This document shows, in pieces, positions 6,522 through 62,082 of a DNA stretch of 64,000 nt (position 1 is its first letter; every line of letters begins with the position of its first letter). Made by a program: the position numbers and the translations under genes. The stretch covers positions 62,001 to 126,000 of the forward strand of contig JAIORK010000026.1 in NCBI GenBank assembly GCA_021108215.1, given 5' to 3'. The notes beneath the pieces are model-generated. The model ran no database searches, was not told the origin of the DNA, and worked only from the letters and a program-made list of their open reading frames with translations. This DNA is from a bacterium. Lineage in GTDB: Bacteria > Oederibacteriota > JAAXVQ01 > JAUVAV01.

Positions 6522-8876
6522 TTACACCCCGCTTTTCTTCGCTGCAAACCACAGTTGCAACTGATGCCGGTTTATATCATTTTTATCCAGCAGCACGGAT
6601 TGCATACACATAAGCTGCTCACCTATTACATTTATTTTTTTTGAAAAACCGGCTATTTTTTCCAGCATCATTTCCTTGGTCAAATCATTGATATCTATCA
6701 CCGCTTCTGCCTGGTCCATCATTTCCATAAAACCGCTGACCTTGCCTTTACCGTGTGTGTAATCCAGTGCAATCACCGGCACTCCCAAGGTTGCAGCAAA
6801 TACGACTGAATGAAACCGCATACCAATAAATAAATCCTGTGCCGCGATCTCTCCGGCAATCTCTGATGGAGCTCCCGTTCCAGTAACAATCCGGGTCTTA
6901 ACCTCGTCCGGCAAGGCTGCCTGTATTTGTTCCAGAATATCCCGGTCATCATCACCAACATAAAAAGTGTTCATCGGCACCAGGGTCACTTCCGCATGCT
7001 GCGTTTTCACAAGGTACTCAATAACTTCCGCATACACTTGCACCAACATCATTAATTTTTCCTTGAAAACTTCTTCCGAAAGTGTCGCAGCATAATTCCG
7101 GGGCCAAGCACGAATCGAAAATCCGATTTTTTTAATTTTTTCTGTTTTTCTCAAATGCCGTCCCGGATGACCAAGCAAATAAACCGTCGAAGGATCAATG
7201 CTAAGCTCAACCCCTTTTGCCGCCCCCATGGCTTGCAAACAATCCATCGACCGCTGATCCCGAACCGTGACAATATCGGCAAGTTGGACTATCAGCTTCA
7301 CCACGCGTTTGAGGCGTTTACTGTACAGAGGCCCGACACCAATACCATAAAGCATGGTGATTTTTCTCTGCAATCGGCCTTTAAGCACAAAGCGCAGCAC
7401 ATCAACCACATCACGTATTTCCATCAAGGGACCGCCACCCATAACAATCAAATCAGACTGATGTAACGCACGACTGCATGACGCTGTCCCGATCGAAACA
7501 ATTTTTATTTTTACATTCCCGATTTCCGAAACTGTTCGCCGAGTATAAAACGGATGGTACGATGCAATCGTCGTATCAACCTCACCAAAATCTTGCTGAA
7601 TATTTTGAAGTATTCCTGTAAGAATCGCCTTGTCTCCTGTCGTTTCCGTACCATACCATCCCATCACGAATAACTTTTTCAACAGTTTTTTGTTTCGTGG
7701 TTTTTTTTCCAACAACACCAAGCGCAGCAGCTCCGCGAAGAAAACCATCCCACGATCCAATAGCGGCAGCAAAATTATTTTCCGATATGTCGTCTTAAGC
7801 AACTGAAACAAAAGCCGGCGCGTGAATAAAGTCGTATAATCATGCGAACACGCGGCACATGCCGTCTTTTTAATACTGCCGCGATATTCCAAATTTGCAG
7901 ATTGAAAATACAGTTTTTTAGCTGAAATTTCCAGCGCATTTCCCAACGATTTACTCTTGACGGCGCAATAATAAATTTTGCCTTTGGCATCCAATGTCAC
8001 TCCGTCCCTTTCCCAAAGACAAGGCACGGTTCGCGGTTTGTTTTCAACCAGCATGTCCCGCAAGGATACATAGTACAGTTTTCTTTCCCAGTCCTGTTCA
8101 TAGGTCATCGCCAATTTTTCCAAAAACTGCGCCGCACAGTGACGCTGTGTCTCATTCAGTGTATATCCACCAGTACAATCGAAATTGTAAAGACGGTCAA
8201 CCCGTGTTGCCACTCTGAATTTTATATACAACCCCCGCGCTTTGGCAAAATTCCAGATCCGATTGAGCTCATCAACGTTTTGTCTCATAATCGTGCAACA
8301 CAAGGCCAATGAAATCGCCGGCATCTTCTGAAGTCGTTCGATCGTTTCCTGCATGCGCACAAATGCTTTGGGCACACCACGCACTTGGTCATGCACGTCT
8401 CCGATGCCGTCAATTGAAATCATCACGCTCAGCGTTTTTCTGTGCTGTTGACAGACCTGCGCCAATGCCTTGATACTGTTTTCAACTTTTTCCGGTTGCA
8501 AACCATTGCTAATAATACTCAAACCCTTTAATTTTGGCAGCTTACGGATCATGACCTGTCCCAACTGGGCCAGATCATTGCGCAATGTCGGCTCCCCCCC
8601 GCTCAAGCCAACAGAGCGGACTTTTTTAAATAAAGGATCGGAAAGAATTCCAGCTATGGCCTCGGTTGCCAAATCCGTTACATTTTCCTCTTTCCAAACG
8701 TTGCACATAACACAGCGCGAATTGCATCGGTCTGTGACCGGAAAGTTAATAACATTGGGATAAAGCGCACCAAATACTCTTTGAATGCGATAACGCGAAA
8801 TTTGACGCCCCCACTGGTAAAGGGCTTTCAAAGCATCACCTGTTTTAGATCCACGAAACAATCGTATAAAATTCAT
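6522..8876 (-). CDS. Radical SAM (SPASM-like) - polysaccharide pyruvyl transferase fusion
   Basis: The start is taken at 8876 (MNFIRLFRG) because its ATG overlaps the TGA of the preceding flippase gene; upstream in-frame codons lie inside that gene. The 784-residue product has two halves. Residues about 40-350 are a radical SAM enzyme: CX3CX2C at Cys51, Cys55, Cys58 (DRCNSRCVMC), GGEP near 93-96, and later cysteines (PCLW, YYCA, CAAC) like a SPASM/twitch auxiliary cluster. After a basic, hydrophobic joining segment (about 350-400), residues from about 403 match polysaccharide pyruvyl transferase (CsaB/WcaK type): GWYGTETTGDKAILTGI, VMGGGPL, YGIGVGP, GMRFHS and GVPVIALDY. Known pyruvyl transferases put ketal pyruvate on glycans. 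The radical SAM substrate is unknown, and the fusion is unusual to me. Confidence 0.85.
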   Translation of the reverse strand: MNFIRLFRGSKTGDALKALYQWGRQISRYRIQRVFGALYPNVINFPVTDRCNSRCVMCNVWKEENVTDLATEAIAGILSDPLFKKVRSVGLSGGEPTLRNDLAQLGQVMIRKLPKLKGLSIISNGLQPEKVENSIKALAQVCQQHRKTLSVMISIDGIGDVHDQVRGVPKAFVRMQETIERLQKMPAISLALCCTIMRQNVDELNRIWNFAKARGLYIKFRVATRVDRLYNFDCTGGYTLNETQRHCAAQFLEKLAMTYEQDWERKLYYVSLRDMLVENKPRTVPCLWERDGVTLDAKGKIYYCAVKSKSLGNALEISAKKLYFQSANLEYRGSIKKTACAACSHDYTTLFTRRLLFQLLKTTYRKIILLPLLDRGMVFFAELLRLVLLEKKPRNKKLLKKLFVMGWYGTETTGDKAILTGILQNIQQDFGEVDTTIASYHPFYTRRTVSEIGNVKIKIVSIGTASCSRALHQSDLIVMGGGPLMEIRDVVDVLRFVLKGRLQRKITMLYGIGVGPLYSKRLKRVVKLIVQLADIVTVRDQRSMDCLQAMGAAKGVELSIDPSTVYLLGHPGRHLRKTEKIKKIGFSIRAWPRNYAATLSEEVFKEKLMMLVQVYAEVIEYLVKTQHAEVTLVPMNTFYVGDDDRDILEQIQAALPDEVKTRIVTGTGAPSEIAGEIAAQDLFIGMRFHSVVFAATLGVPVIALDYTHGKGKVSGFMEMMDQAEAVIDINDLTKEMMLEKIAGFSKKINVIGEQLMCMQSVLLDKNDINRHQLQLWFAAKKSGV

Positions 8877-10315
8877 TGTACAATTTCCTTTTTGCTTATC
8901 AATGCTCTGACTTGCTGCCAATCCTCCCGGGAAAAGGCCTTCATCAAAACAATCAGCACTCCGTAAACTGCAACCCCAATCGCAATGACCAGCCACAATG
9001 ATATCATCGGGCGAAGCACATAGACAATCCCTCCCATGATTCCACTTGCCAGCATCACCTTCACAATCACTCCCCGGCTTTTACCTATCGGCCAAAGCGA
9101 CCGGGCAAAGACGATAAAACAAACAGTCAAGACAACAGCGCTCACCACACTGGCCCAGGCAGCCCCTTGAACACCGGCCATAGGAATCCACAGGCTGTTG
9201 AGCAGAACATTTAATCCGGCTGTGATGGCAACCACGATTAATCTTTTGGTCTGTCCGCCCGTTGCCGTCAATGCCATCCCTACAATAAAACCGATGAACC
9301 GAAAAGGAATCATCATGCTCAAAATCCGAAAGATATCTCCCGAATCAGCATATTTACTTCCATAGATTGCCACGATTAAGCCGTCGGCCAACAAAACCGC
9401 CCCAACTGATAAAGGCACCGATAGTATAATTATAAACCCAAGACTTTTTTCAAGCATACGATGTATTTCTGTTTTGGATTGTGCATAAATCCGGCTAATG
9501 GTCGGAAAAAGTGCACTGACAATCAAGAGCGGAAAGGCCTCAAGCAACTGATTGATTTTCATTGCTGATTGATACAATCCCACCGAGTGCTCGCCCCGCA
9601 TCACTGAAAGCATCAAAATATCCGTGTGAAAATAGATGATATCACTAATAAAATATAATCCAAATGGAATGGCCAGGATAAAAATCCTACGCATCTCACG
9701 CCACTTAATGGACACGAATTTGATCTCAATTTTACTAAATAAAATACTCGTGGCGATCGGCAGCGTTATCAATCCACCGAAAACATATCCGGATATTAAT
9801 CCCGCTGGTGAACGAACACCCATTAGCAACATAACCCCGATAATCAAAAAAACCAGGATCATATAGATCATCATAACATAAGACACATAGTTCATTTTTT
9901 CATGTCCGCCAAAAAACGCGGTCACAAATTCTACCAACAAACGCAAAACCGCCGCCGCACCACCAATATACAGCGCCAGGCGCACATGCCCGGGATAAAA
10001 TATGTGACTCATCCCGACCAATACGATCATCCCCACCGCTGAAATGATTAGTTTTAAAACCAATCCATGCACAAAAAGTGTCGAAACTTGTGATCGTTGC
10101 TTGGCAATCTCATGGGTGGTTAAAAAAGTCGTCCCAAAATCCGCGACCACCCGAAAAATACCACTAATCGTTATTGCCAAGGCATAGACGCCAAATGTCT
10201 CCACCGCCAGAACGCGGGCAATAACAATGGTCAGAAACATAAGTAAAAAACCGCGAATGCACCGATCCAATATTAAAAAGAGAGAATTTTTTGCAACCAA
10301 GGCAAGGCGACTCAC
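8873..10315 (-). CDS. wzx: Wzx-like polysaccharide flippase (MOP/oligosaccharide flippase family)
   Basis: A 480-residue integral membrane protein with about 12-14 predicted hydrophobic segments, opening with the family-typical pattern of an N-terminal helix, RVLAVETFGVYALAITISGIF and VADFGTT. It belongs to the MOP superfamily whose Wzx members flip undecaprenyl-linked oligosaccharide units across the inner membrane. The start is a GTG at 10315 overlapping the TGA of the Wzy-like gene. The next gene overlaps its stop by 4 bases. Its place between polymerase and glycosyltransferases is the usual Wzx/Wzy arrangement. Substrate specificity cannot be read. Confidence 0.88.
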   Translation of the reverse strand: MSRLALVAKNSLFLILDRCIRGFLLMFLTIVIARVLAVETFGVYALAITISGIFRVVADFGTTFLTTHEIAKQRSQVSTLFVHGLVLKLIISAVGMIVLVGMSHIFYPGHVRLALYIGGAAAVLRLLVEFVTAFFGGHEKMNYVSYVMMIYMILVFLIIGVMLLMGVRSPAGLISGYVFGGLITLPIATSILFSKIEIKFVSIKWREMRRIFILAIPFGLYFISDIIYFHTDILMLSVMRGEHSVGLYQSAMKINQLLEAFPLLIVSALFPTISRIYAQSKTEIHRMLEKSLGFIIILSVPLSVGAVLLADGLIVAIYGSKYADSGDIFRILSMMIPFRFIGFIVGMALTATGGQTKRLIVVAITAGLNVLLNSLWIPMAGVQGAAWASVVSAVVLTVCFIVFARSLWPIGKSRGVIVKVMLASGIMGGIVYVLRPMISLWLVIAIGVAVYGVLIVLMKAFSREDWQQVRALISKKEIVQ

Positions 10316-11664
10316 TTTCGAGAGCCTTGTAAAGAGTCGCTGTTTATTTTACGATGAACAATAATCATGGACGGTAGAATCCCAAAAAGGGTATAAAAAA
10401 GAAACGGCACACGTGTATTTGCCACCATATCCGTCCCCCATATGATAACCGCCAAAATACCAAAAATATTTGCCACCAAGCACTTCACAATTACTTTATC
10501 CTGAACTTCACGAATCATCCGGCTTCCATGATATCCATAAGTTATCAGCATGAACCAAAAAAGCAAAAATGCCGCCAATCCCAACAGCCCCATTTTAAGC
10601 CACAGATGTAAATAGGTATTATGAACAATATTAGGATTAATGCCCTGACCGCCAAAGCGACTGGTTTTAACCCGCCTAAACCCATGACCAAAACCACCGC
10701 CGAATAAAGGTTTTTCTTTGATAGCTAAAAAAGCATCATACATATCATACAGATGAAAATAATTAGTATCAGTACGGGTACTGACAAATGATGCCAGGCG
10801 CCCGCGAACACTTTCCGCCTTCTCACCTCCTAAACCGCTAAACACCCAAAAGAACATTCCTGCCAAAATTAAGAACATGGCAATAAAAAATTTTATTTTT
10901 TGTCTGAGTTGAAAAGTAAAAAAAACAAGGACCAGCGAAATGCCAAACTGTACCCATGCATTCCTGCGCAAAGAAAAAATCACACTAAACATCATCGGTA
11001 GACAGGCAATTAATTTTACCCAGGTCTGTAATAAAACCGGACGGCGGGAAAAAAATTCAGCAACAGCCAAAACACTTAAAACCGCAAACAACATGTTTTC
11101 CGCCGAATCCCAAAAAACCACTTGGGACTTCAACGTAGCATGTATCGGCCCTTTCCCCATCAAATACAGCAACACACCCTGGCAGGCTCGTAGAAAAGCT
11201 AAAATATAAATCCAATTAAGAAATCTCAGAATCCTTTTTCGTGTTGTCAAAATATTGGGAACCAATAAAATCATCAGCATGGCGAAAAAAAAAGACCGCC
11301 ACTCGCCATAGCCGAAAGCCGATTTGAGTGTCGCACCGCCCATATACCCGCGAAAAGCGGAAAACACAACTAAAACTAAAAACAGAATAATCCCGCCCGT
11401 AAACGGTGGTAAATAAAATTTCCCCTTCCCCAGAATTTTTTTATTGATCAGAGAAATACTAAAAAAACAGATAACGATCAGCTCGGTCAAATGCAGATTA
11501 AAAATATCCATGCGGTAGAGTGTCCAGGCCCCAGCCATATCCGGATGCCAACCTTCACGAAAAAAAACCAGGCTTGCGACTAAAACAATTAATCCCAAAT
11601 AGGGTTTGTACCAATAACTCAATACGGCAACACACAAAATGCCGAGAAATATAATATGTTCCAT
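10312..11664 (-). CDS. O-antigen polymerase/ligase-like membrane protein (Wzy/WaaL type)
   Basis: A 450-residue protein with about 11-12 hydrophobic segments and one long polar loop (about residues 290-350) containing RGRLASF, LFGGGFGHGF and NPNIVHNTYLHLWLKMG. Glycine-rich GxGFG and HNxYL in the large periplasmic loop are the hallmark of the Wzy_C/O-antigen ligase family. It should polymerise, or alternatively ligate, undecaprenyl-linked repeat units. Context with Wzx and Wzz favours polymerase. It starts 24 bases after the Wzz-like gene and overlaps wzx by 4 bases. Confidence 0.85.
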   Translation of the reverse strand: MEHIIFLGILCVAVLSYWYKPYLGLIVLVASLVFFREGWHPDMAGAWTLYRMDIFNLHLTELIVICFFSISLINKKILGKGKFYLPPFTGGIILFLVLVVFSAFRGYMGGATLKSAFGYGEWRSFFFAMLMILLVPNILTTRKRILRFLNWIYILAFLRACQGVLLYLMGKGPIHATLKSQVVFWDSAENMLFAVLSVLAVAEFFSRRPVLLQTWVKLIACLPMMFSVIFSLRRNAWVQFGISLVLVFFTFQLRQKIKFFIAMFLILAGMFFWVFSGLGGEKAESVRGRLASFVSTRTDTNYFHLYDMYDAFLAIKEKPLFGGGFGHGFRRVKTSRFGGQGINPNIVHNTYLHLWLKMGLLGLAAFLLFWFMLITYGYHGSRMIREVQDKVIVKCLVANIFGILAVIIWGTDMVANTRVPFLFYTLFGILPSMIIVHRKINSDSLQGSRK

Positions 11665-11688
11665 GGCCCTTATCCTTACCTATCCGAA

Positions 11689-12444
11689 CTACCGCCGATT
11701 TCTTAGGGTGGCTTCCTTATACAGAATCAAAAAAACCGATGCCCCCAGGCTAAGAGCCAAGCCAAGTGCGATCAGCGCAATCGACCAAACCGGATCATAT
11801 GCGGGTGTCCCATCAGCTTCAAGAAAGCTGGAAGGAAATACAATTTTCTCTTCATAAAGACTTTGAATTTCATTCAAATCAAGTTTTTGTATCCATAATT
11901 CATCACGTCGTTTTAAAAGAACGCTTTGCCCGTTGGCATCCAATGCCCAAAGCGCATCCTTATTTTTCCCCCGTTTTTCCAGAATAATAATCTCGTTTTC
12001 CATCTGTTCGATACGGTTATTTAATATCTCAATATCCTTTAAAAGCTTATTATTATATTTACTAAACTCATTTCCATGCTCTTTTAAAAGAAATACTTTA
12101 AACGTCTCTGCTTCTTGGGTTACATTTTTCTTATTGAATCCTTTAAATGTCGTCTTGATGACCGACGACGGCGAAAGCGAAACCACATGCCTAATCTTGT
12201 AAATAGAACTCAGGCGCTCTACCAATGACGAAGGATGCTCGATAAACTTAGGCAGCACCCCTTCGTTGGAGTAGCCGGCAATTTTCCCGACCCGAAAATA
12301 AGTATCCACTGTATATCGTTTAGGTCCCAAAATTACGCCCAGCGCGGTCAGCGACATAACGATTACAAAAATTTTAAAAATCGTTTTACGGTATTTCCAA
12401 AACACCTCAAGATAATCATTTAATTCCGCTTCATGTTCAATCAT
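11689..12444 (-). CDS. Wzz/chain-length determinant-like protein
   Basis: A 251-residue polysaccharide co-polymerase with the expected topology: a short cytoplasmic N-terminus (NDYLEVFWKYRKTI), a first membrane segment at about residues 23-40, a periplasmic domain with a coiled-coil stretch (about 130-165, LLKDIEILNNRIEQMENEI) and a second membrane segment at about 220-240 preceded by a Pro-containing segment. There is no C-terminal tyrosine kinase domain. It probably sets glycan chain length with the Wzy-like protein encoded next. A ribosome site AAAGGA lies upstream of the ATG. Confidence 0.85.
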   Translation of the reverse strand: MIEHEAELNDYLEVFWKYRKTIFKIFVIVMSLTALGVILGPKRYTVDTYFRVGKIAGYSNEGVLPKFIEHPSSLVERLSSIYKIRHVVSLSPSSVIKTTFKGFNKKNVTQEAETFKVFLLKEHGNEFSKYNNKLLKDIEILNNRIEQMENEIIILEKRGKNKDALWALDANGQSVLLKRRDELWIQKLDLNEIQSLYEEKIVFPSSFLEADGTPAYDPVWSIALIALGLALSLGASVFLILYKEATLRNRR

Positions 12445-43487: not shown

Positions 43488-44513
43488 TTATTCGATCTCA
43501 CCAATGGTTTTCCGGAATTTTGTCACTAATTTAACCGACGTTTCATCAATAAGCCCGCGCAATGCTTTATACGCGTAACCTTTGGAATCTTTCAAATCAA
43601 CTTCATTTGTCGTTTTCAGGTCTTTTAATTTTAAATTTCTCCGATTGGCTTTTTTAGGGTCCTTGGGGACCACCACCATAATCGGAATACTTCCTTTGGT
43701 GGGTGATAAATCATCAAATCCCGGCCAGCCTAAATCCGCCACAATTTCCCCGTTTTTATCAATTAGCATCAATGTTGGATTCAAGCGAATCGTACCATTG
43801 GTTCGTCGGGTTTTAATATTAACCACATTGACACCCTTCACATGTTTGAAAGCGGCAGCTTTATTCCAAACCACGAACATGCCGTCCAAACCGGTTTGTT
43901 GACAGGCATACGCAACGGAATCCAACATCACCTGCTTCATTTTATTTTTATTATTCTTTGCAGCATTTCCATAAGAGACTTTTTTGACTGTCACCCCTTC
44001 GGCATCATCTCTAAATAAATGGTACGTAACATTGGCACATCCTCGGGCAGCTAATTGATTCCCGGTTTTTTTAACATAATCATCCTTAAACGTATTAATC
44101 AATACTTCTTCGGTGCTCCCGCCTTTTTTACCCATCAAACGCAACATCATGGCAGATGCGGCTGCTTGACCGGCATTTTTCTCCAACATCTTCTTCATGA
44201 CCGGAGAATTTTTAAAATCAGTAATACTGCGTAAACTGGCATGGCTTTGATACTGCTGTCTGGGTATATATTGAAAACTGGTAATGCTACTTAAAGCTTG
44301 ATCATATTGCTTCAATGCGTAATCAGCAGCTTTTTGCGTAATTGCCTGATTATTGGCTGAGGGTTGTCCCATTTTATCCATGGTGACTGCACAAAGACCT
44401 ACTTTTTTCAAATTGGATAATGCAGCTTGATTGACTCGCGTAGTTGCACAACCTGATACGACCAACATGCTTACTGTAATTAAAACACCAATAATCCATT
44501 TTGCTTGTAACAT
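43488..44513 (-). CDS. Lipoprotein of unknown function
   Basis: The ATG at 44513 follows a GGGGGATGGGAA ribosome site and opens directly with a lipoprotein signal (MLQAKWIIGVLITVSML, lipobox VVSGC), so it is preferred over an earlier in-frame start. The 341-residue product begins its mature part ATTRVNQAALSNLKKVGLCAV and shares with 55513-56412 the pattern of a lipid anchor, NLKKVG/SIKKIG, a helical middle with SITSFQYIPRQQ/AISHWNILPIDQ, then ..LDGMFVVWN/LDAVIVLRT. They appear to be distant paralogues. A late segment MLIDKNGEIVADLGWPGF is beta-hairpin-like. Function is unknown; outer-membrane attachment is inferred. Confidence 0.75.
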   Translation of the reverse strand: MLQAKWIIGVLITVSMLVVSGCATTRVNQAALSNLKKVGLCAVTMDKMGQPSANNQAITQKAADYALKQYDQALSSITSFQYIPRQQYQSHASLRSITDFKNSPVMKKMLEKNAGQAAASAMMLRLMGKKGGSTEEVLINTFKDDYVKKTGNQLAARGCANVTYHLFRDDAEGVTVKKVSYGNAAKNNKNKMKQVMLDSVAYACQQTGLDGMFVVWNKAAAFKHVKGVNVVNIKTRRTNGTIRLNPTLMLIDKNGEIVADLGWPGFDDLSPTKGSIPIMVVVPKDPKKANRRNLKLKDLKTTNEVDLKDSKGYAYKALRGLIDETSVKLVTKFRKTIGEIE

Positions 44514-44610
44514 TTCCCATCCCCCTTTTAATTTGTCCAACCGCCATCTATTCGACAGATACAAAATTAAAATCTTTCACCAATTTTATCATACGCCATC
44601 CGACTCAGGG

Positions 44611-47105: not shown

Positions 47106-48350
47106 CTAAAAACTGTACTTTATTTTAGCATAAACCATATCATTGTCATCATATTGCCCGAAATTGCCTTCACTCCCAATAAAAATATTGGCACCCAGCA
47201 GCAATTCAAATCCATCGACCAAAGCATAAGTGATTTTGGGACGAATCAGGGCATCGGAATTATTCAGTCCAATGTATGAAAACAATTCCAATCGCAGCGT
47301 TTCCCGCAGAAAATCTTTGCTCGCCAGAAAAGTCATCGTATTCTCAAATTCATCATTCGCTATGGCTTCATCATACTGCAAAATTGCCTGCTGAACAAAT
47401 TGGGCGCTAAACCGCACGTCCCACATTACAAAATCCAATCCTACCAAATAATGAATATAGTCTTTCCGTACCGTGCCATCAATAAGTGTCATATCTTCTG
47501 AATTGAAATATTTATCGTGATAATAGGCTCCTTCTCCGCGCACTATAAAGCCACCCAGCGCGGTGCTGAAACTACCGCCCCCCAATCCCAGACGATGATG
47601 CCTCGGTGTGACGGTTATCCCTGCCAGTTGAAATGTCACAGGATCAATGGTTTTTGTAATGTGCATCGTCGGATCATCGTCCCACATGTATCCACCCATA
47701 ATTTCAAAATCAATCGCAGATGTGATAATTGAATATTTTGCAAACACCTCACTATTTTCCAATGCCGCGCCAACTTCTTTTTGACTATAATCAAAGGATG
47801 GTGACACGGGAAAATCCAATCCCGGGAACCAGATGGAACCTTCCCCAGGCATTTGAGTCGAAGTAAACATCGGGTTCCATACAAATTCAATGGTATTGTC
47901 ACCTAAATAATAATCGGCCTTTAGGGCTGTAATACCCATACGAATTTCGTCAAAATCACGCAACAAAAATTCACTTAAATCTTTGGGAGAAACAATATCG
48001 GTGATAAACACACCATCAGCCTTTCCCCAAATAATTTGCTGCTTTCCCAGGCGTAAATCTATTGAGTCAAAAAAGATATCCACATATGCTTCACGTAACC
48101 CGATTTCCATTTCCTGATTGGGATACTGATAAATATAAGGATTTGCTTTGAAAGCCACCTTTTCTTTACTCTGTTCAATGTTCAAATTAAATGTGTTTTG
48201 AACAATGGGATACTCATTGTCGCCGGTTAACAGCATTCCGGTATAATTGCGCACATAACCCGACCAATTCAGCGATTGCGCCGCTGCCCCGCTTATGAAA
48301 ACTAACAGCGCAAGAACACCCCCGAATAGTCCGAAATACAACGTTCTCAT
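47106..48350 (-). CDS. DUF1302-like outer-membrane protein of an RND module
   Basis: A 414-residue protein with a signal peptide (LFGGVLALLVFISGAAAQ), regular amphipathic strands throughout and a C-terminal YAKIKYSF, typical of a beta-barrel. LRLGKQQIIWGKADGVFITDIVSPKDLSEFLL near residues 100-130 matches the LGRQ-WG...D--NP-DL pattern of DUF1302 proteins. Such barrels are often encoded with an RND/MMPL transporter and a LolA-like outer-membrane lipoprotein-sorting protein, which is exactly the context here (48347-51432, with 4-base overlaps). The cargo is unknown; lipid or hydrophobic compound traffic is inferred. Confidence 0.78.
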   Translation of the reverse strand: MRTLYFGLFGGVLALLVFISGAAAQSLNWSGYVRNYTGMLLTGDNEYPIVQNTFNLNIEQSKEKVAFKANPYIYQYPNQEMEIGLREAYVDIFFDSIDLRLGKQQIIWGKADGVFITDIVSPKDLSEFLLRDFDEIRMGITALKADYYLGDNTIEFVWNPMFTSTQMPGEGSIWFPGLDFPVSPSFDYSQKEVGAALENSEVFAKYSIITSAIDFEIMGGYMWDDDPTMHITKTIDPVTFQLAGITVTPRHHRLGLGGGSFSTALGGFIVRGEGAYYHDKYFNSEDMTLIDGTVRKDYIHYLVGLDFVMWDVRFSAQFVQQAILQYDEAIANDEFENTMTFLASKDFLRETLRLELFSYIGLNNSDALIRPKITYALVDGFELLLGANIFIGSEGNFGQYDDNDMVYAKIKYSF

Positions 48351-49135
48351 TTCAAACCTCTTTTCATCATTCGTTCCGTAAACTTGTTCGCCGAAAGTCC
48401 TGTGTCCAGTTTAACATTATCCAGTTCCATTTTTGTCGTATGGTCTTTCTGAACATTACGCATTTCACTTGCCAGTATTGTCCAATAGCTCCCGATTTTA
48501 TCATATTTTTTTACGGTCAGTGTTTTCAGCAATTCACCGTCTTCATCATAAAAATCTTTTTTAAGACTGATCCATTTGTCTTTAATGATCCAGGAAACAG
48601 TCCGCGAGTACATATACTCTTCATTTTTGGAAATACTTTCCACAACATAGCAATCTTCATCCCCCGTTTTTTCCTCACGCACCAGTTTATGGGTATCATC
48701 GGTCGGATAGCGATCACCCAAATCATCATACGTGAAATCAGATCCCATAAAATAATCACTGGTACTGTCACTGGAAATGCGTTTTACTTTTTTCAAAGCC
48801 GGCAGATAAATCCACTGATCATCATTTTTGCCGGCCTCGTCGTAGCCCCAATTCATGAAAGAAGTGTTGCGCACATCCGCCGGCGAAACAAAAAACATGA
48901 TTTTCTTTTCCATTTTTCCAAAATCCTTAATAAACTGTTTAATTTTTCTCACGCGTTGATCACCACGGGAATTAATAAGCGACATGGTCAGATCACCTTG
49001 CATGTCATTACCGGTTTCGCGATTGTAAACATTTTCAATAATCTTCAAGCCGCTTATTTTTTCTTGCGAAAGCCCCAGCGTCGGCACAATGATTAACAGT
49101 GCCATTACCATGAGTAGTGTTCTTTTAATAATCAT
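48347..49135 (-). CDS. Outer membrane lipoprotein-sorting protein (LolA-like, PF17131 type)
   Basis: A 262-residue secreted protein with a signal peptide (MALLIIVPTLGLSQ) and a LolA-like half-barrel: GDLTMSLINSRGDQRVRKIKQFIKDF, KIMFFVSPADVRNTSFMNW, DQWIYLPALKKVKRIS and FMGSDFTYDDLGDR are the conserved runs of this family. It is a periplasmic carrier-like fold thought to shuttle lipids or hydrophobic molecules. It lies between the RND pump and the DUF1302-like barrel with ATGA overlaps on both sides, so the three parts could form an inner-to-outer membrane route. Confidence 0.87.
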   Translation of the reverse strand: MIIKRTLLMVMALLIIVPTLGLSQEKISGLKIIENVYNRETGNDMQGDLTMSLINSRGDQRVRKIKQFIKDFGKMEKKIMFFVSPADVRNTSFMNWGYDEAGKNDDQWIYLPALKKVKRISSDSTSDYFMGSDFTYDDLGDRYPTDDTHKLVREEKTGDEDCYVVESISKNEEYMYSRTVSWIIKDKWISLKKDFYDEDGELLKTLTVKKYDKIGSYWTILASEMRNVQKDHTTKMELDNVKLDTGLSANKFTERMMKRGLK

Positions 49136-51432
49136 TTTAAGCCTCCATTTTTTTTGAAATAAATATTCGAGCCAAATAGCACCAGATACATAATCGTCAC
49201 TGTCCCCAGGAAACTTGTAAACATATTCAAGGAAACCAATGCACCCAATGCACGATTTGACGGAAATCCGGAAAACAGCAGCACTAAAAATCCCGCAATC
49301 ACCACAATCGCATTAAACACAATTGCCCTGCCGGTATGCTGCATCGTATACTGACCGGCCAATACCTTGTCGCCTGTTTCGGCCGCGGAAATCTTGTAGC
49401 GATCTATAAAATGAACCGCGTAATCAATACCAATACCGATGGCGATGCTGGAAACCAAGGCCGTGGTTGTGGACAAGGGAATATTCAGCAATCCCATCAC
49501 CCCAAAGCTAATGACGGCTGTAATCACAACCGGCACTGCACCAATTAAGCCTGCCATAATATTTTTAAACATTAAGGAAAGCAAAATAATAATAATCACC
49601 AGAGACATTAACAGACTGGTAACTTGCCCCTTTAAAATCAAGTCGGTAAATACCAGGCTTTTATAACCGGATCCGGCATATTTAAGCTCAACATTTTTCG
49701 CGTTAAATGCCGGCATATGTTTTTCAATGATCGCGATAGCACTATTAATCGCCTTGGAGTTATCGCTTTTCAATTGAAATGTCAAATTAGCTTTTTGGTA
49801 ATCATAATTCACAACCTTCCACAAGTTTTCCGGGTCCCCTGACATTTCATAAAGCAGTAAATACTGGGCAATCAGCTCTTGCGATTCAGGGATAACATTG
49901 TACTTTTCTTTGTCAGCATGCATGACTTTATTCATCCGCTTTAAATAATCAGTCAAAGCGAATGAATTACCCACAACATCCAATGTTCCGACAACATCGT
50001 CCTGCAATTTATCAATAGCCTTAAGAATGTCCGGATTTTTAAAGGCATCCTTATCTTTGGAATCAAAAATAACGTTCAGCGTAGATGTGCCGCCAAAATT
50101 TTCATTAATAAACTTATCCGTTATCACAATTTCACTGTCTTTTTCAAATTTTTCCAAAAAACTGGAATTGATCCATATTTTTCCAATGCCAATGACCGAA
50201 AAAACAATAATAACCGCTGTTAAAACAATGGTTATATATTTGTATTTAATAATCCTCTCTGAAAATGTCAAATTGTCGTTATGTTTGTTTTCGTTACTTT
50301 TTTCCTGCTTTTTCTTCCATTGGGGTAAACCAAAAACCATCACTGATGCGGGAATCAATACCAACGAAAACACCATTGCCATCATCACACCAAAAGCTGT
50401 GAACATCCCAAAATATTTAATTGGATAAATTTGCGAAGTCAGCAATGAAATAAAACCCACCGCCGTGGTCACCGACGTCATGAGTACCGGTTTCCACATC
50501 CCCTGAATCATATCCAACACCGCTTCTTTTCTGGAAGCAATCGGATTTTTAATCATAAAAAGGTGGAGATGATTATACAAATGGATTCCATAGGCCACGC
50601 CAATGGCGATGAGCATGACCGGGAGCATGGTTGAAACCGCATAGATCGGAATACCCACTGCCGCCATGAGCCCAAACGACCAAACCACACTGAACAAAAC
50701 CACCAACAATGTGAAAAAGGTACTCTTGAAGCTTCGCAAAACAATCAGAAGAACCACGACAATAACCAAAATAACAATCGGGACCATGCGTTTCATATCA
50801 GCCGGACCCAGCATCGCCAGGTTGCCTTCCACAATTGGACGGCCGGCCACATATACTTTTTCAGGTCCTTCAAAAGATTTGCTTACTTCCAAAATCTGGT
50901 GATAAAATTCCTGAGAAAAAACATCATCTTCAATTTCAGCAACAATGATGGTCACTGTTTCATCGATTGATACCAATCGCCCGAAAATCATCTCATTATT
51001 GCGGACATTGGAACGAAGTTGCTCCAATGCTTCCTCTGTTTTCGGTGTACGCTTAAAAAATGCTTTTACGTCCATACCCTCTTGGGTACCAATAATATTA
51101 TCCGCTGTGTACAGCGACGTAACATCGTTCTTATTGATCTCTTTCATCTTTTGTAATGTTTTGGTCAATTGCTTTATTTTCTGAATAGTTCCGGTGTTGT
51201 AAATTCCATCCGGATTTTCAACAGCAATAATGATGCCGTCTTTAATATCAAACCATTCTTCAGCCTGGTTGCTGTACACAAATGCCGGATGGCTCTGAGG
51301 CATATATTTATCCAGATCGGTCTCCATGCGTGTATTTGATTTCATGACTGCAAAAAAGGCGATCGAAGTAATTAGAATTAAAACCAAAACCGTCTTGGGC
51401 CTCTCCAGCAGTTTATTGAATATTTTTTCCAT
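49132..51432 (-). CDS. RND superfamily transporter (MMPL/HpnN-like)
   Basis: A 766-residue protein with two repeats, each a membrane helix, a periplasmic loop and a five-helix bundle; hydrophobic segments lie near residues 15-30, 215-365, 400-420 and 605-760. DLDKYMPQSHPAFVYSNQAEEWF near the start, AIGVAYGIHLYNH and AIGIGIDYAVHFIDRY are the family's SSD/MMPL-type motifs; the latter two are the paired functional helix-4/10 positions. It likely exports lipids or hydrophobic compounds using proton flow. It has a plausible promoter (TATAAA at 51457-51462) and is first in the three-gene unit. Confidence 0.88.
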   Translation of the reverse strand: MEKIFNKLLERPKTVLVLILITSIAFFAVMKSNTRMETDLDKYMPQSHPAFVYSNQAEEWFDIKDGIIIAVENPDGIYNTGTIQKIKQLTKTLQKMKEINKNDVTSLYTADNIIGTQEGMDVKAFFKRTPKTEEALEQLRSNVRNNEMIFGRLVSIDETVTIIVAEIEDDVFSQEFYHQILEVSKSFEGPEKVYVAGRPIVEGNLAMLGPADMKRMVPIVILVIVVVLLIVLRSFKSTFFTLLVVLFSVVWSFGLMAAVGIPIYAVSTMLPVMLIAIGVAYGIHLYNHLHLFMIKNPIASRKEAVLDMIQGMWKPVLMTSVTTAVGFISLLTSQIYPIKYFGMFTAFGVMMAMVFSLVLIPASVMVFGLPQWKKKQEKSNENKHNDNLTFSERIIKYKYITIVLTAVIIVFSVIGIGKIWINSSFLEKFEKDSEIVITDKFINENFGGTSTLNVIFDSKDKDAFKNPDILKAIDKLQDDVVGTLDVVGNSFALTDYLKRMNKVMHADKEKYNVIPESQELIAQYLLLYEMSGDPENLWKVVNYDYQKANLTFQLKSDNSKAINSAIAIIEKHMPAFNAKNVELKYAGSGYKSLVFTDLILKGQVTSLLMSLVIIIILLSLMFKNIMAGLIGAVPVVITAVISFGVMGLLNIPLSTTTALVSSIAIGIGIDYAVHFIDRYKISAAETGDKVLAGQYTMQHTGRAIVFNAIVVIAGFLVLLFSGFPSNRALGALVSLNMFTSFLGTVTIMYLVLFGSNIYFKKNGGLK

Positions 51433-51667: not shown

Positions 51668-52969
51668 TCAAAAAGCCACTTTCAGCTCTAATCGCACCAT
51701 ATGGATCACCTCCTCCAACCCCAGCGCCTCTATTCGGCTAAGTATCACCGCCGGTTCAACATGACCAAATAAACTTACGCCGGCTTCAAAATTCATTTCC
51801 ATAGTCTGCTGATCTTCCAGTTGTTTTACACCTTTTAGCTGTACATAAGGTTTGAGTTTTCCGGGGAATCGATGTCTGACTTCAGCAAATGCCAGAGGTA
51901 AATTAACGGCATCTAAACGCATGACTTCTCCAAAAAACAGATTACTAAAAGTTGGTTGGAATTTTGCATCTCCATTCCATTCAGATTGTCCCAGATAGCC
52001 AACACTGATGCTGGTTAAAGCTCCTGAGTCGTAAATAAAGTCCTTGCCTAATTCTATGGTATAAGCCAATGTGCTTTCACTGTCAATAGTTTGATTGATA
52101 CCACTAATGGCCCAATCCAGAGCATTGTGTAATTTACCGTTCATCAGCAACCCAACATAAACCCGGTTATCCTCAATAATGGTTCCAAACTCCTCATAAA
52201 AAAGTACGCTCAGATTACTGACACTAATGTGGCTTACTGGTCCACTACTATCACTGTCCGAAAACTCACTGAACTCATTGCCCGCGTCATCACCCGGCAC
52301 ATAACCCGGGTTCCAACTAATCGTTAGCCCTAACAAATTGGTCTCACCCATGACTTCCCCCACACCCCCGGTATAATCCAATGCCAGAAGATTATAAAGA
52401 TGGCGATTGGCACAAAACTTTCCCATGCGGGCAAAATGGTCCGTCACCGTACCGGCCTGTGCCTGCACTGAGAAAGCTTGCCAGCTCTGATTATAGCTCA
52501 ACCCCAAAACCCGTTCATCCAACAGAATGGAGTTACCCATCTTCATCTCCTGCAACCCGAGACGGGCGATGATATCCTTTTCCTGATAATGATAAAAAAC
52601 CTGCCGCAACCCTACATGCCGGCTGTCTTCATATTCCAAAACCGCTGGTTGGTTACTGTCGTCCGATCCACTGATATCAGTGACACTCCAATGTTTATAC
52701 CCGCCTTCTAAATAGAGTTGGTGTGATGAAAAAAAAGTGTAGTTAAGCGCACCCAAAAGCATCCCGCCGGTTATCATTTTATCGCCGATTCTCCCCGGTC
52801 CCATCGTCCCTTCGATCGCCCACAACAAAGAAGATTTTTCCATCACCGGAGTTAAATGAGCGCCTAAAATACTCCGGCACTCCCGCTTGGCATTGGCATT
52901 CACCGCCAAACCAAGCACCAGGCCCAGCAGTATTAGCCTACTTAGATTTTTGCATTTTAATTTTAACAT
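51668..52969 (-). CDS. Predicted outer-membrane beta-barrel protein
   Basis: The ATG at 52969 (MLKLKCKNLSRLILLG) is preferred because an AGGA ribosome site lies 10 bases upstream; an ATG three codons earlier is an alternative, and a longer frame lies inside the preceding gene. The 433-residue product has a signal peptide ending NANA, then repeated amphipathic strands (QLYLEGGYKHWSV, DIIARLGLQEMKMG, ALTSISVGYLGQSEW) and a C-terminal VRLELKVAF with final Phe. It has porin-like design but no family that I can name. It is the last gene of the TetR-led unit, overlapping the ferredoxin gene by about 30 bases. Confidence 0.75.
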   Translation of the reverse strand: MLKLKCKNLSRLILLGLVLGLAVNANAKRECRSILGAHLTPVMEKSSLLWAIEGTMGPGRIGDKMITGGMLLGALNYTFFSSHQLYLEGGYKHWSVTDISGSDDSNQPAVLEYEDSRHVGLRQVFYHYQEKDIIARLGLQEMKMGNSILLDERVLGLSYNQSWQAFSVQAQAGTVTDHFARMGKFCANRHLYNLLALDYTGGVGEVMGETNLLGLTISWNPGYVPGDDAGNEFSEFSDSDSSGPVSHISVSNLSVLFYEEFGTIIEDNRVYVGLLMNGKLHNALDWAISGINQTIDSESTLAYTIELGKDFIYDSGALTSISVGYLGQSEWNGDAKFQPTFSNLFFGEVMRLDAVNLPLAFAEVRHRFPGKLKPYVQLKGVKQLEDQQTMEMNFEAGVSLFGHVEPAVILSRIEALGLEEVIHMVRLELKVAF

Positions 52970-54011
52970 GATGTTCATTTCCTTTTCGATAAAATGAAAT
53001 ACTCGATTTTGGACAAGCATCGAGGCAATCTCCACAGACAATACAATCCTGATTATCCAAATGACTGATTTTTTCCGGACTGCGGGTAATCGCATTGACT
53101 TGGCAGCTGGTGTTGCAGCTGGTACAACTTATGCAGGTCTGATTAATCCCCAAAATACTGGCCCCGGGAATTTTTGCAATCCAACCCAAAATCAAGCCGA
53201 TCGGACAAATACTCCGACAAAATGGGCGGTAAATGAACAAAGAACTAAGCAACAGTACGCCTAATAAAATGTAACCGATCAGATTAGGAGAAAACAAATT
53301 AAAAGCCACCTTAAACGGCCCATAATGTTTATAAATATTTGTATGGGTTATAAACAACTGTGTCAGTAAAACAACCAGCACAACTGTCCGAATGATTCCC
53401 ATAATTTTTTGCGCCCGAGCACTTTGAAATAATCTTAATTTACCCGGCAGCATAAGAAATTCCTGGAAAGCGCCCAAATGACAGGCCCAACCGCACCACA
53501 CCTGTCCAAAAATATAGGTCAGCGGAATCAGCACCAGAAACCACAAAAGACTTTGCCATTCTATTTTTACGCCAATCAACATCAGCCAGGTATTTTGGAA
53601 ACTGGAGATCATGCAAGCACCGCCACCGTGATAAAACCCCAACACTACCAGGGAAAACAGCAGCATGACCCCTTTGAAACGGCGGGTGAATTTGAACCGC
53701 ACCATAATCCCTGACAAAATTGTCATCACCACAACCAGTAATGCCCAATACATTTTGGAGTAGCTCACCGATTCAGCAGGCGCTGATTCTGCACCGCTAT
53801 CGTTGAATTCCTCATCAAATTCCATTGAGCTGAATTCATCATCGCCGCCCGAATTGACAAATTCATCCCCCGTATTATTGCTGTCAACCATCACGGTTCC
53901 TGATAGACCGGCGTCAGCAGCAGCGATCAGCACATTGCCCACAAGAAAGGGAAGAACCATAACAAATAAGAAGCCAAGTGACTTAAGAAATTTTAAGGGT
54001 ACACCCAACAT
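52938..54011 (-). CDS. NapH-like membrane ferredoxin
   Basis: A 357-residue protein with a signal-like first helix, an acidic low-complexity segment (residues 48-80), several membrane helices (about 88-105, 115-128, 155-172, 207-222, 245-260), the Cys motifs WCGWACHLG (173/177) and CRSICPIG (265/269) placed at membrane edges as in NapH/NosR/CcoG proteins, and two 4Fe-4S ferredoxin motifs at Cys293-296-299-303 and Cys323-326-329-333. All eight cluster cysteines are present. It would move electrons across or along the inner membrane; the donor and acceptor are unknown. It sits between a small secreted protein and a barrel gene. Confidence 0.85.
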   Translation of the reverse strand: MLGVPLKFLKSLGFLFVMVLPFLVGNVLIAAADAGLSGTVMVDSNNTGDEFVNSGGDDEFSSMEFDEEFNDSGAESAPAESVSYSKMYWALLVVVMTILSGIMVRFKFTRRFKGVMLLFSLVVLGFYHGGGACMISSFQNTWLMLIGVKIEWQSLLWFLVLIPLTYIFGQVWCGWACHLGAFQEFLMLPGKLRLFQSARAQKIMGIIRTVVLVVLLTQLFITHTNIYKHYGPFKVAFNLFSPNLIGYILLGVLLLSSLFIYRPFCRSICPIGLILGWIAKIPGASILGINQTCISCTSCNTSCQVNAITRSPEKISHLDNQDCIVCGDCLDACPKSSISFYRKGNEHHVKIKMQKSK

Positions 54012-54028
54012 AGCCTTGCTCCTTTTTA

Positions 54029-54559
54029 TTATTTGTTCGCGGTGCTCAACGGCTCGGATTTGAGCGTCATACTGCCGTAACCACCTTCTTTATCACAAGT
54101 CCGAACAGCATTCACCAGAAGTTTTCCACTCTTTGTACCAATTACCTCAATCTTTAATTTCCGTGTATAAACCATGGTTGATAATTGCTGCCACTTGGTG
54201 GCCCCGATAACTTTTAGCCCTTTAAATTTAAATTTGGTTTTATTAATCGCCGTCGGACAGACACGATGAGTCAGCGTCACGGTCACCCGGGAGGTAAAAA
54301 CATCCCCCGCGTGGTAGATAATCTTTTTCGATTTTTTATCCGTCTTGGCTGGCTCTTTTTCAGTTTTCTGGTCAATTTTGCCTACAATTACTTCCTGGTC
54401 CGCTGCAACTGCCTGCTTATTTTTATCCGCCTGATTTGACTGCGGCTGCTCTATAATCTCAAAATTAATCTCACAGGCCGTCGCCACGCCCTGAAAAAAA
54501 AGTACTACGCCTGCACTCATGATGAGTGTTCTTCGTATCTTCCATGAATTATCATTCAT
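54029..54559 (-). CDS. Small secreted protein of a NapH-like operon
   Basis: A 176-residue protein with an N-terminal signal region (IMSAGVVLFFQGVATACEINFEI), a Lys/Gln/Glu-rich insert of about 40 residues, and a beta-rich C-terminal domain: VFTSRVTVTLTHRVCPTAINKTKFKFKGLKVIG, then KLKIEVIGTKSGKLLVNAVRTCDKEGG. Three cysteines (CEI, VCP, TCD) could bind metal or form disulfides. I do not recall an assigned function; similar proteins beside ferredoxin genes exist. It lies 17 bases before the NapH-like gene and 11 after tetR, so it belongs to the same unit. Confidence 0.7.
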   Translation of the reverse strand: MNDNSWKIRRTLIMSAGVVLFFQGVATACEINFEIIEQPQSNQADKNKQAVAADQEVIVGKIDQKTEKEPAKTDKKSKKIIYHAGDVFTSRVTVTLTHRVCPTAINKTKFKFKGLKVIGATKWQQLSTMVYTRKLKIEVIGTKSGKLLVNAVRTCDKEGGYGSMTLKSEPLSTANK

Positions 54560-54570
54560 TTCTCCGCCTC

Positions 54571-55170
54571 CTAAATTGCGTCTTCCTTATTTTTTAGTAC
54601 CACTGCCAAACTTTGCCACAGTGCCTGTGCGGATTTTTTAATATCAAAACCGCATTTTGCCAGCCGCCATTTTCTGACCAGTAACCGCATTGGTCCCATA
54701 ATGAGGATCATCAAATGTTCTGCCGGCAAGTCAGCCCGGACAGTTCCTTGATCTTGTCCCTGCCGGATAATTTTCAATATCTTTTTTTCATTCGCCTGTT
54801 TCATCGCCAACACCTGCGCAGTTACTTTTTTTTCATTCTGAAAAATTTCTTCCGAAAATGTCACTGCCGCCAGCGCCGGGTGCCGGTCAAACATTTCTGC
54901 ATGACCACAAAATATGTTTTTCAACATGGCCGGAATATCTCCAGATTTGGTTGCGAGCTGTTCAAATATCTCCTGGTTATACTGACCAAACTGTTTCACT
55001 GTTGCCATCAGCATCCCGGTTTTATTCGTAAAATGCCGGTATATCGCCGGTTCGGATATTTCCAGGCATTGCGCAATATTTTTCATCGTAAGATGCTGAA
55101 TGCCCTGTTCCGCAATCAATTCAATCGCCGTTGTCATGATTTGTTGTTGCCGCAGAGTATAAATTAACAA
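54571..55170 (-). CDS. TetR/AcrR family transcriptional regulator
   Basis: A 199-residue regulator with an N-terminal helix-turn-helix: ELIAEQGIQHLTMKNIAQCLEISEPAIYRHFTNKTGML at about residues 17-54, followed by a helical ligand-binding half. The start is a TTG at 55170 with AGGTGG 5 bases upstream, giving the usual short N-terminal arm. A 24-bp perfect palindrome directly upstream (55184-55207) overlaps the expected transcription start, so it likely represses itself and the genes behind it (secreted protein, NapH-like ferredoxin, barrel). The ligand is unknown. Confidence 0.9.
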   Translation of the reverse strand: MLIYTLRQQQIMTTAIELIAEQGIQHLTMKNIAQCLEISEPAIYRHFTNKTGMLMATVKQFGQYNQEIFEQLATKSGDIPAMLKNIFCGHAEMFDRHPALAAVTFSEEIFQNEKKVTAQVLAMKQANEKKILKIIRQGQDQGTVRADLPAEHLMILIMGPMRLLVRKWRLAKCGFDIKKSAQALWQSLAVVLKNKEDAI

Positions 55171-55183
55171 ATGACCACCTCAC

Positions 55184-55207
55184 AAGTTAGTTATTATTAA
55201 CTAACTT
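55184..55207. promoter_or_regulatory. TetR operator palindrome
   Basis: Perfect inverted repeat AAGTTAGTTA - 4 bases - TAACTAACTT. It begins 3 bases after the -10 of the tetR promoter and ends 14 bases before the TTG start. Size and symmetry suit a TetR dimer. Confidence 0.75.
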
Positions 55208-55209
55208 TA

Positions 55210-55238
55210 AAGATACGCCTATCACCTCACGGTGTCAA
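55210..55238 (-). promoter_or_regulatory. Sigma70-type promoter of the tetR operon
   Basis: Minus-strand TTGACA (55233-55238), 17-base spacer, TATCTT (55210-55215). The operator lies at the start point. The rest of the space up to 55512 contains no clear gene; a weak plus-strand -10 (TATATG near 55390) may serve the next gene. Confidence 0.65.
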
Positions 55239-55512: not shown

Positions 55513-56412
55513 GTGAAAAACACTATTTCCAATCCAAACGATTACCTGAATTTTAAAAAAACTTTTTCAACTGCCGGAAAATATTTTATAGCACTCTCTT
55601 TGGTCGTCACACTCGCAAGCTGCTCTGCCGTCCCCATTTCACGCAAGGCCGAAGTCCAGTCAATCAAAAAAATCGGCATTGTGAGTCTTAGCGCCAACAC
55701 TTATATTTACAACTACAAAGCCGGACCAGCTTCAGACAAAAACCTTCATGAACTCCGGAAAAAAGCGCAAGAAATGAAAGAATATACTGGAAAAACAACT
55801 GATACAACCCAGGCCTCGATTGAACAAATTCTGATTAATTCCGACACAATCTATACCAACGCTTTAAAAGCCATCTCGCACTGGAATATCCTCCCCATTG
55901 ACCAAGTCAAAAAAATGCCTGCCTATCAGGCATCGTCAGGTGAAGCAACCGATGCGAAAGGTTTTGTCCCGGTCACCATATTGCCGGAGACCAAATATTT
56001 TGATTCATTCAGAAATTCACTTTATAAAGAAAAAAATCAAAAAACCTTCCAGGATCTGACCGAGCTTTGTAAGCAGCTGGATCTCGATGCTGTGATCGTC
56101 CTGCGAACGGTACTTGCCTATGAACCAAAGGGCCTGCAGCTCCTAGGCGGATTGGGGAACTTGCTTGCATCGAAAAAAACCAAAGCCGTCCCGGTTGCGG
56201 GCACTGCAATCTCGGTTGTCACCAAAGCGGGTACAAGTGCTGTTTATCGAGGCGTTCTTTTGGAATACAAGGGCACTGCGGTGCCTATGCTGCAGGGTGG
56301 TTTGGTAAACTTTACCGGCGATGATGCTGCGGCCATCAAATCTTATAATGAGGCCATACAGGCGAGTGCAACCGCACTCGCAGAGACCCTCAACAAAGAA
56401 TTAAGCGAGTAG
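55513..56412 (+). CDS. Lipoprotein of unknown function
   Basis: A 299-residue protein and the only clear plus-strand gene. It starts with GTG at 55513 behind an AAAGGAG ribosome site. A lipoprotein signal with lipobox LASC lies near residue 37 (YFIALSLVVTLASCSA), preceded by an unusually long N-terminal region. The mature part has SIKKIGIVSLSAN, a helical middle, LCKQLDLDAVIVLRT near residue 190 and a glycine-rich segment (LLGGLGNLLASKK). It has distant similarity in layout to 43488-44513. It is divergent from tetR, with an inverted-repeat terminator behind it. No function is assigned. Confidence 0.75.
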   Translation: MKNTISNPNDYLNFKKTFSTAGKYFIALSLVVTLASCSAVPISRKAEVQSIKKIGIVSLSANTYIYNYKAGPASDKNLHELRKKAQEMKEYTGKTTDTTQASIEQILINSDTIYTNALKAISHWNILPIDQVKKMPAYQASSGEATDAKGFVPVTILPETKYFDSFRNSLYKEKNQKTFQDLTELCKQLDLDAVIVLRTVLAYEPKGLQLLGGLGNLLASKKTKAVPVAGTAISVVTKAGTSAVYRGVLLEYKGTAVPMLQGGLVNFTGDDAAAIKSYNEAIQASATALAETLNKELSE

Positions 56413-61471: not shown

Positions 61472-62082
61472 TGCGGCACCTGCGTCGCCCGCAGGATAAC
61501 ATCGAGAGAAACTTTGTCGGGCATTAAAAAGAAATAACCGTTAATGACACGGTTCGATTCCATAAACTCCGTTTCAATACAAATAACCTCAGTGTTGCTG
61601 GGAAACCCTTTGGAAAGTTCCGTAACCACCGCCTCGGCCATATCAAAAATGAGCTGGGGAACGGACTGTAACAGCAAAAGCCCTAAAAATTCCGTCAGTG
61701 CATTGAGGTAAGCGCCGGCCAGAATATTCCCAGCTTCTTTAATCGCCGAGTGCTCCAGCATGGTGAGAATCTGACGTTCCTCGGTATCTTGCTTGGTCAA
61801 AAGCCCGGCCATCTGCAACGCGCTTTTCCGCGGCAAAATCAACACAATCTTGGCTGAGACATCGCCCAACACATGCATGGTCACACCGGCAATGAGCGAT
61901 TGTGGGCCGCCTACCAAATCAACCACTTTGTTCAACGGCAAACAAAGAACTTTGGGAACCGTAATCATAATTTTTTTTTCAATCAGTTGGGACAATGCAG
62001 TTGCTGCATGACCCGCACCAATATTGCCAACCTCACGTACAGCATCCAACTGTATATCGGATAATGCGCGAATGTCAGGCAT
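61468..62082 (-). CDS. cheC: CheC family CheY-P phosphatase
   Basis: A 204-residue protein with both CheC active-site motifs exactly as in the family: Asp13-x3-Glu17-x2-Asn20-x22-Pro43 and Ser112-x3-Glu116-x2-Asn119-x22-Pro142, in REVGNIGAGHAATALS and KEAGNILAGAYLNAL. Both glutamate/asparagine pairs are therefore present, predicting an active CheY-phosphate phosphatase. It lies 13 bases after cheA and overlaps the FtsA-like gene, so it is part of a chemotaxis or motility unit. Confidence 0.95.
   Translation of the reverse strand: MPDIRALSDIQLDAVREVGNIGAGHAATALSQLIEKKIMITVPKVLCLPLNKVVDLVGGPQSLIAGVTMHVLGDVSAKIVLILPRKSALQMAGLLTKQDTEERQILTMLEHSAIKEAGNILAGAYLNALTEFLGLLLLQSVPQLIFDMAEAVVTELSKGFPSNTEVICIETEFMESNRVINGYFFLMPDKVSLDVILRATQVPQ

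Follow-up and report, generated by a model that had tools for sequence, protein, structure and literature searches.

Pairing of a secreted three-cysteine protein with a NapH-like membrane ferredoxin across distantly related bacteria suggests an unrecognised route for electrons out of the cytoplasm

Introduction

Membrane ferredoxins of the NapH, NosR, and CcoG type serve to carry electrons through the membrane or to provide metal in reduced form, and many of them have no known partner in the periplasm. According to the excerpts of the literature cited here and below, the membrane segments of NapH are proposed to oxidise quinol and to pass electrons to the periplasmic NapG, CX3CP motifs being needed (PMC5928378), NosR and RdhC carry a periplasmic flavin mononucleotide (FMN) domain (PMC5928378), and the related membrane ferredoxin CcoG is a reductase of Cu(II) with a periplasmic immunoglobulin-like (Ig-like) domain of unknown role (PMC7558416). 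Here we describe a locus from a bacterium of the Oederibacteriota in which a gene for a NapH-like membrane ferredoxin lies next to a gene for a secreted protein with three cysteines. It is situated in a stretch of 64,000 nucleotides (positions 62,001 to 126,000 of contig JAIORK010000026.1, assembly GCA_021108215.1), which as a whole is called the window.

Judged by gene neighbourhoods, the conserved core of this locus is a two-gene module consisting of the secreted protein and the NapH-like ferredoxin. We propose, with a probability of roughly 0.55, that the two proteins form a transmembrane reductase in which the membrane ferredoxin would feed a Cys/His site on the secreted β-sandwich protein.

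Results

A gene pair in six phylum-level groups

A scan of genome contigs with the window ferredoxin identified one close relative (53% identity) on a contig (L022) of a Candidatus Kapaibacterium metagenome-assembled genome, where the secreted protein, the ferredoxin, and a putative β-barrel are encoded in the same order as in the window and the gene upstream is of the RelA/SpoT type, not tetR. Profile searches for the secreted protein, performed on genome sets that overlap, found the family in 27 genomes in all, belonging to six phylum-level groups. Among 45 genomes of the window's own phylum it occurs in the window genome only; one weak match (G011, E 6.8e-4) was dropped as a chance match, its locus showing no such gene. 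Within the phylum and the class of the Kapaibacterium genome, 1 of 395 and 1 of 197 genomes possess the family, in both cases the genome of L022 itself. A domain-wide draw gave 4 of 384 genomes, the window's genome included, and in the three phyla of the new matches 5 of 103, 4 of 17, and 1 of 3 genomes are positive. With a second draw, 7 of 381 genomes were obtained, one of them new (G646), and 15 of 100 genomes from the phylum of G646 carry the family. Since G646 was missed by the first profile and caught by a later one, the absences in the phylum and class sets of L022 and in the first domain-wide draw are not firm. Plasmids yielded no match to the Kapaibacterium secreted protein and one partial match to the ferredoxin, the viral contigs scanned contained no relative of the ferredoxin, and listings of open-licence PMC papers showed no description of the pairing.

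Twenty-nine loci, including that of the window, were read. In 26 of them the secreted gene is accompanied by a NapH-like gene of the same orientation, and in 25 of these 26 the matched stretches are at most 542 bp apart and often overlap. In the remaining one (L033) the pair is 2049 bp apart on the same strand, with a two-component system encoded on the opposite strand in between. The three other loci (L050, L079, and L085) do not allow a judgement on pairing, the secreted gene running into the contig end. By coordinates, the ferredoxin comes first in five paired loci (L031, L044, L045, L046, and L047) and the secreted protein in the other 21; as the order varies while the genes stay together, the order has changed and the pairing has not.

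The sequence identities of the two proteins correlate over 21 loci (r = 0.86; 0 of 2000 permutations as high), a kind of correlation that shared ancestry alone can also yield. When 42 ferredoxins were placed in a tree, 20 of the 25 that are linked to a secreted gene grouped together (support 93/92), and those of the window and L022 were paired with full support.

The preliminary description of this DNA had suggested that tetR, the secreted protein, the ferredoxin, and the barrel may form an undescribed electron-transfer or metal/redox-sensing system across the envelope. Of this proposal, the periplasm-facing unit is supported by the pair in 26 of 29 loci, whereas the four-gene unit is not general: of the 28 further loci, covered over roughly 4 to 18 kb each, L022 alone shows a barrel homolog and none shows a homolog of tetR, and both genes were rejected as core members. 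The outcome named there as speaking against the system, namely that only tetR and the secreted gene stay together, is contradicted, tetR being the part that is lost.

The secreted protein

The secreted protein of the window (54029..54559, minus strand) comprises 176 amino acids, with a predicted signal peptide ending VATA^C29 and the invariant residues C29, H98, C101, W123, and C155. A Lys/Glu/Gln-rich insert after the first strand is specific for the window copy. In an alignment of 30 rows (29 loci, one of which, L087, is split into two frames), the first Cys is found in all 25 rows in which its position is covered, the His and the second Cys each in 26 of 26, and the Trp and the third Cys each in 28 of 28, at pairwise identities of the domains down to 19%. 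The first Cys is missing from L086 and L090, which end with their contigs, from one half of the split L087, and from L083 and L084, in which the 5′ part is out of frame. Every row spanning the core of the domain contains exactly three Cys except L031, which has a fourth. For 11 members, neither Pfam nor NCBIfam gave a match up to E 1, scattered chance rows aside, and a sequence search of the PDB returned chance rows only. By its sequences, the family with this invariant Cys/His/Trp set is an undescribed and unclassified one.

Ahead of the first Cys, position -3 is Ala, Ser, or Gly in 24 of 25 sequences and never Leu, and position -1 is Ala, Gly, or Ser in all 25. Leu at -3 is typical of lipoboxes. 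As the residues at -3 and -1 fit signal peptidase I, the predicted cut lies at this Cys, which is probably the first residue of the mature protein.

Six members (L031, L044, L045, L046, L049, and L057) are longer and show a second conserved C-terminal region ending in YRFD or similar, which is not present in the secreted protein of the window.

The membrane ferredoxin

The ferredoxin (52938..54011, minus strand; 357 amino acids) consists of an N-terminal signal or anchor sequence, an acidic Phe-rich stretch, a Fer4_5 membrane part (PF12801, 48 bits in two matched stretches), and two 4Fe-4S motifs (C293/296/299/303 and C323/326/329/333). The membrane part contains C133, C173xxxC177, and C265xxxC269, and these five cysteines as well as the eight of the ferredoxin motifs are invariant in 11 homologs; Fer4_5 and Fer4 matched in 11 of 11 homologs scanned. 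The protein had been described as an eight-cysteine NapH-like ferredoxin, to which the five further invariant Cys have to be added. When hydrophobic segments are read by eye, C133 may lie near the outer end of a helix. As a mark of the pair, C133 was rejected, the sister proteins L003-L012 carrying it too. A PDB sequence search with the ferredoxin gave best-matched stretches confined to the 4Fe-4S part.

In the window protein, the acidic stretch occupies residues ~40-75, ahead of the membrane part, and contains repeated Asp/Glu-Phe motifs; a short form (SFPSDLEF-like) is seen in ferredoxins of other phyla. In most members, the N-terminal hydrophobic segment is followed by a stretch containing Phe, acidic in several of them, which perhaps serves as a docking peptide.

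Two CX3C motifs within Fer4_5 and a C-terminal pair of 4Fe-4S motifs are common to the ferredoxin and NapH/MauN (TIGR02163). However, the window protein stays far below the cut-offs of the NapH models (TIGR02163, 70.4 bits over 149-340 versus 213.05; NF007013, 59.5 versus 234), and napG, napF, and napA are not in the window operon, the partner here being the secreted three-Cys protein. The same membrane module with two CX3CP motifs is found in NosR and RdhC (PceC); in contrast to these, an FMN-binding domain is not among the Pfam matches of either the secreted protein or the ferredoxin, and the NosR model scores 52 bits versus 1000. Two genomes of the window's phylum encode close ferredoxins that also carry the extra Cys, in NapG/NapH-like clusters (L091, 3105-10874; L092, 2329-10037). 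These differ in lacking the secreted protein and in containing, as read by eye, a periplasmic-type 4Fe-4S protein, apparent pyrroloquinoline quinone (PQQ)-type repeat proteins, and NuoE/NuoF-like genes, and they possibly represent a different, undescribed electron route.

The number of invariant cysteines brings to mind a thiol relay of the DsbD/ScsB kind, without a thioredoxin-like part, in which membrane cysteines would reduce a disulfide formed by two of the three Cys of the secreted protein, which in turn would reduce other periplasmic thiols. Three invariant Cys in the secreted protein and five outside the ferredoxin motifs in the membrane protein, with C133 near an outer helix end as read, would suit such a relay, and for PceC disulfides in the CX3CP motifs are favoured over a 2Fe-2S centre in the excerpt concerned (PMC5928378). 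However, the invariant His and Trp and the odd number of Cys are better suited to a metal site, no CXXC is seen, and Pfam scans of the ferredoxins found neither a CcdA nor a DsbD membrane domain. We consider the relay unlikely, though worth keeping in mind beside the proposed reductase.

Operon of the pair in the window

In the window, tetR, the secreted protein, the ferredoxin, and the putative barrel are encoded by four tightly packed genes on the minus strand, with gaps of 11 bp between tetR and the secreted gene and of 17 bp between the latter and the ferredoxin gene, which is overlapped by the barrel gene by 41 bp. Ahead of the start codons of the operon genes there are purine-rich stretches that resemble Shine-Dalgarno sequences. 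The first gene (54571..55170, minus strand, TTG start) encodes a TetR/AcrR-type repressor of 199 amino acids with a TetR_N domain (PF00440, 46.3 bits versus a cut-off of 24) and a TetR_C_4 match (35.5 bits). All four genes lie where the preliminary description had placed them.

Upstream of tetR, a sigma-70-like promoter TTGACA-17-TATCTT (55210..55238, minus strand) matches the consensus in 10 of 12 bases and is one of the four top-scoring sites of a promoter scan. Promoter-like sites are not more numerous in the region than expected by chance (24 versus 21.4), so that this candidate rests on its quality and position. Between the promoter and tetR lies the inverted repeat AAGTTAGTTA-TTAT-TAACTAACTT (55184..55207, no strand assigned), a probable TetR operator. 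The perfect 24-bp operator announced earlier holds for the length and for the arms, which are perfect over 10 bp, but not for the centre, where the 4-nt spacer is not palindromic. When the 342-bp intergenic stretch was shuffled 500 times with its dinucleotides preserved, arms of at least 10 bp arose twice, and the repeat is therefore rare by chance. The TetR repressor probably controls the pair by autoregulation.

The last gene (51668..52978, minus strand, with the ATG at 52978) encodes a putative outer-membrane β-barrel of 436 amino acids. The gene is where it had been reported; its barrel nature is deduced from the signal sequence, the β-type sequence, and the C-terminal Phe, and no Pfam family matched. 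Two Cys, C34 and C189 when counted from this ATG, are shared with the Kapaibacterium homolog (L022, 3616-4314), Cys being unusual in outer-membrane barrels. The ferredoxin, the secreted protein as carrier, and the barrel might jointly move electrons to the outside of the cell, for which the same order of the three genes and the ferredoxin/barrel overlap in both the window and L022 could be quoted. However, the other 27 loci have no barrel homolog, and no cytochrome gene was recognised by eye among the neighbours, and such a conduit across the envelope seems very improbable to us.

Surroundings of the pair

Different lineages seem to put the pair under different regulators: regulators or possible regulators nearby are TetR in the window, an extracytoplasmic function (ECF) sigma factor in L048 (likewise in L049, judged by sequence), and two-component systems near L080 and L033. 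Genes of oxidant defence are neighbours in several loci, i.e., peroxiredoxin and rubrerythrin in L032, a flavodiiron protein in L046, and two rubrerythrin-family genes together with the ECF sigma factor in L048 and, by eye and sequence, likewise in L049. As L032, L048, and L049 belong to one phylum-level group, these are two independent cases, and a link of the pair to oxidant defence is at most suggestive. Beside the pair in L044, many short, regularly spaced repeats (8744-12210; periodic peptides on both strands) resemble an array of clustered regularly interspaced short palindromic repeats (CRISPR).

In the window, genes for an MMPL transporter, a LolA_like protein (PF17131), and a DUF1302 protein (47106-51432) begin 235 bp downstream of the operon. 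The trio was rejected as part of the module, as it stands alone, in the same order, on a Prevotella nigrescens plasmid and none of its genes is met again next to the pair; the sole MMPL match near a pair (L044) has 26% identity to a 975-amino-acid frame of the resistance-nodulation-division (RND) type. Probably, the trio is an ordinary unit for lipid or lipoprotein export that is distinct from the redox pair. The operon region is flanked by two putative lipoproteins (43488-44564 and 55513-56412), possibly related to each other; they have similar short stretches after the lipobox, and neither has a Pfam family above the cut-off.

Discussion

The gene pairing, the correlated divergence, the invariant residues, and the operon layout support a two-protein reductase, for which the following path can be envisaged. 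The NapH-like protein would take electrons from a cytoplasmic donor, either a ferredoxin or, where the host has it, quinol. Thermotogota are not known to contain quinones, and in members of this group, should they carry the pair, a cytosolic ferredoxin would be the donor. The electrons would enter the two C-terminal 4Fe-4S clusters, pass through the CX3C-containing membrane part, and be handed over at the outer face to the dedicated secreted β-sandwich protein. The periplasmic part present in proteins of the NosR and CcoG kind would here be a separate secreted protein, whose site, Cys(mature N-terminus)...HxxC...W...C, is most likely a mononuclear metal site or another Cys/His redox site, a plain thiol/disulfide site being less likely. 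Once reduced, the partner might deliver electrons or reduced metal in the periplasm, possibly as a defence against oxidants. In the window, a barrel gene has been added to this pair.

Several observations weigh against the reductase. The tree does not unite the 25 linked ferredoxins in one clade (three changes), although a single clade is not rejected (approximately unbiased test, p 0.11), and L003-L012 possess C133, yet their short loci show no secreted gene. The signal sequence of the secreted family can also be read as a loose lipobox, in which case the first Cys may carry a lipid instead of serving as a ligand, and the out-of-frame 5′ part of the gene in L083 and L084 may point to decayed or misassembled copies. 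The AlphaFold model of the secreted protein, made from two sequences, is weak, with a predicted local distance difference test (pLDDT) value of 65, and its structure matches are generic β-sandwiches (Foldseek best E 0.27; VIA best Z 5.3); that of the ferredoxin, at pLDDT 42, is unusable. Finally, oxidant-defence neighbours occur in only two of the six groups and could be due to chance.

An N-terminal His that becomes exposed when the signal peptide is cleaved off is known to chelate metal, and the idea is stated to extend to Cys, no Cys example accompanying this extension in the excerpt concerned (PMC12537917). YcnI binds Cu(II) through its N-terminal His and a cushioning Trp (PMC8424229). Like the copper proteins with a histidine brace or N-terminal chelate (CopC, YcnI, and the signal-strapped proteins), the secreted family seems from its model to be a β-sandwich, one that would start with a chelating residue exposed by removal of the signal peptide; in CopC- and YcnI-type proteins, however, this residue is His, whereas here it is Cys and metal binding is a prediction. 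Tentatively, and with odds clearly against us, we extend the proposal to a natural N-terminal-Cys metalloprotein: the amine and thiolate of the cleavage-exposed Cys1, the HxxC motif, the third Cys, and the Trp would coordinate a redox metal on the Ig-like domain, and reduction of this site from the cytoplasm by the dedicated membrane ferredoxin would provide a periplasmic reductase even in quinone-free anaerobes.

Alternatively, the pair might work in metal delivery or assembly as a two-gene counterpart of CcoG, the secreted protein being a carrier for copper or another metal and the ferredoxin reducing the metal for loading or export. The domain logic is that of CcoG/FixG/RdxA, a membrane ferredoxin joined to an Ig-like periplasmic part (PMC7558416), and the N-terminal chelating residue and the Trp on a β-sandwich recall YcnI (PMC8424229), a weak comparison in which YcnI ranks 15th among generic β-sandwiches against the model of pLDDT 65 (Z 4.4, root-mean-square deviation 4.0, 82 residues aligned). 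This Z is not above that of unrelated rows, and DUF1775, the YcnI family, has no sequence match in 11 members of the secreted family at E ≤ 1. In contrast to CcoG, two separate genes and an invariant Cys/His set are found here; the 19 models listed for the window ferredoxin at E ≤ 1e-5 do not include the CcoG model TIGR02745, and 4 of 11 ferredoxins match it at this threshold, that of L044 scoring 23 bits versus a cut-off of 317. In the loci read, inspection by eye revealed no copper genes next to the pair. A role in metal delivery appears doubtful to us.

With the reductase as the preferred explanation, the occurrence of the pair in distantly related bacteria suggests an unrecognised way in which electrons leave the cytoplasm. 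For metal binding by an N-terminal Cys, the secreted family offers a candidate. Gene pairing over six phylum-level groups names a partner for a membrane ferredoxin of this type, and as this partner is small enough to be expressed, the question of what such ferredoxins serve in the periplasm becomes directly testable.

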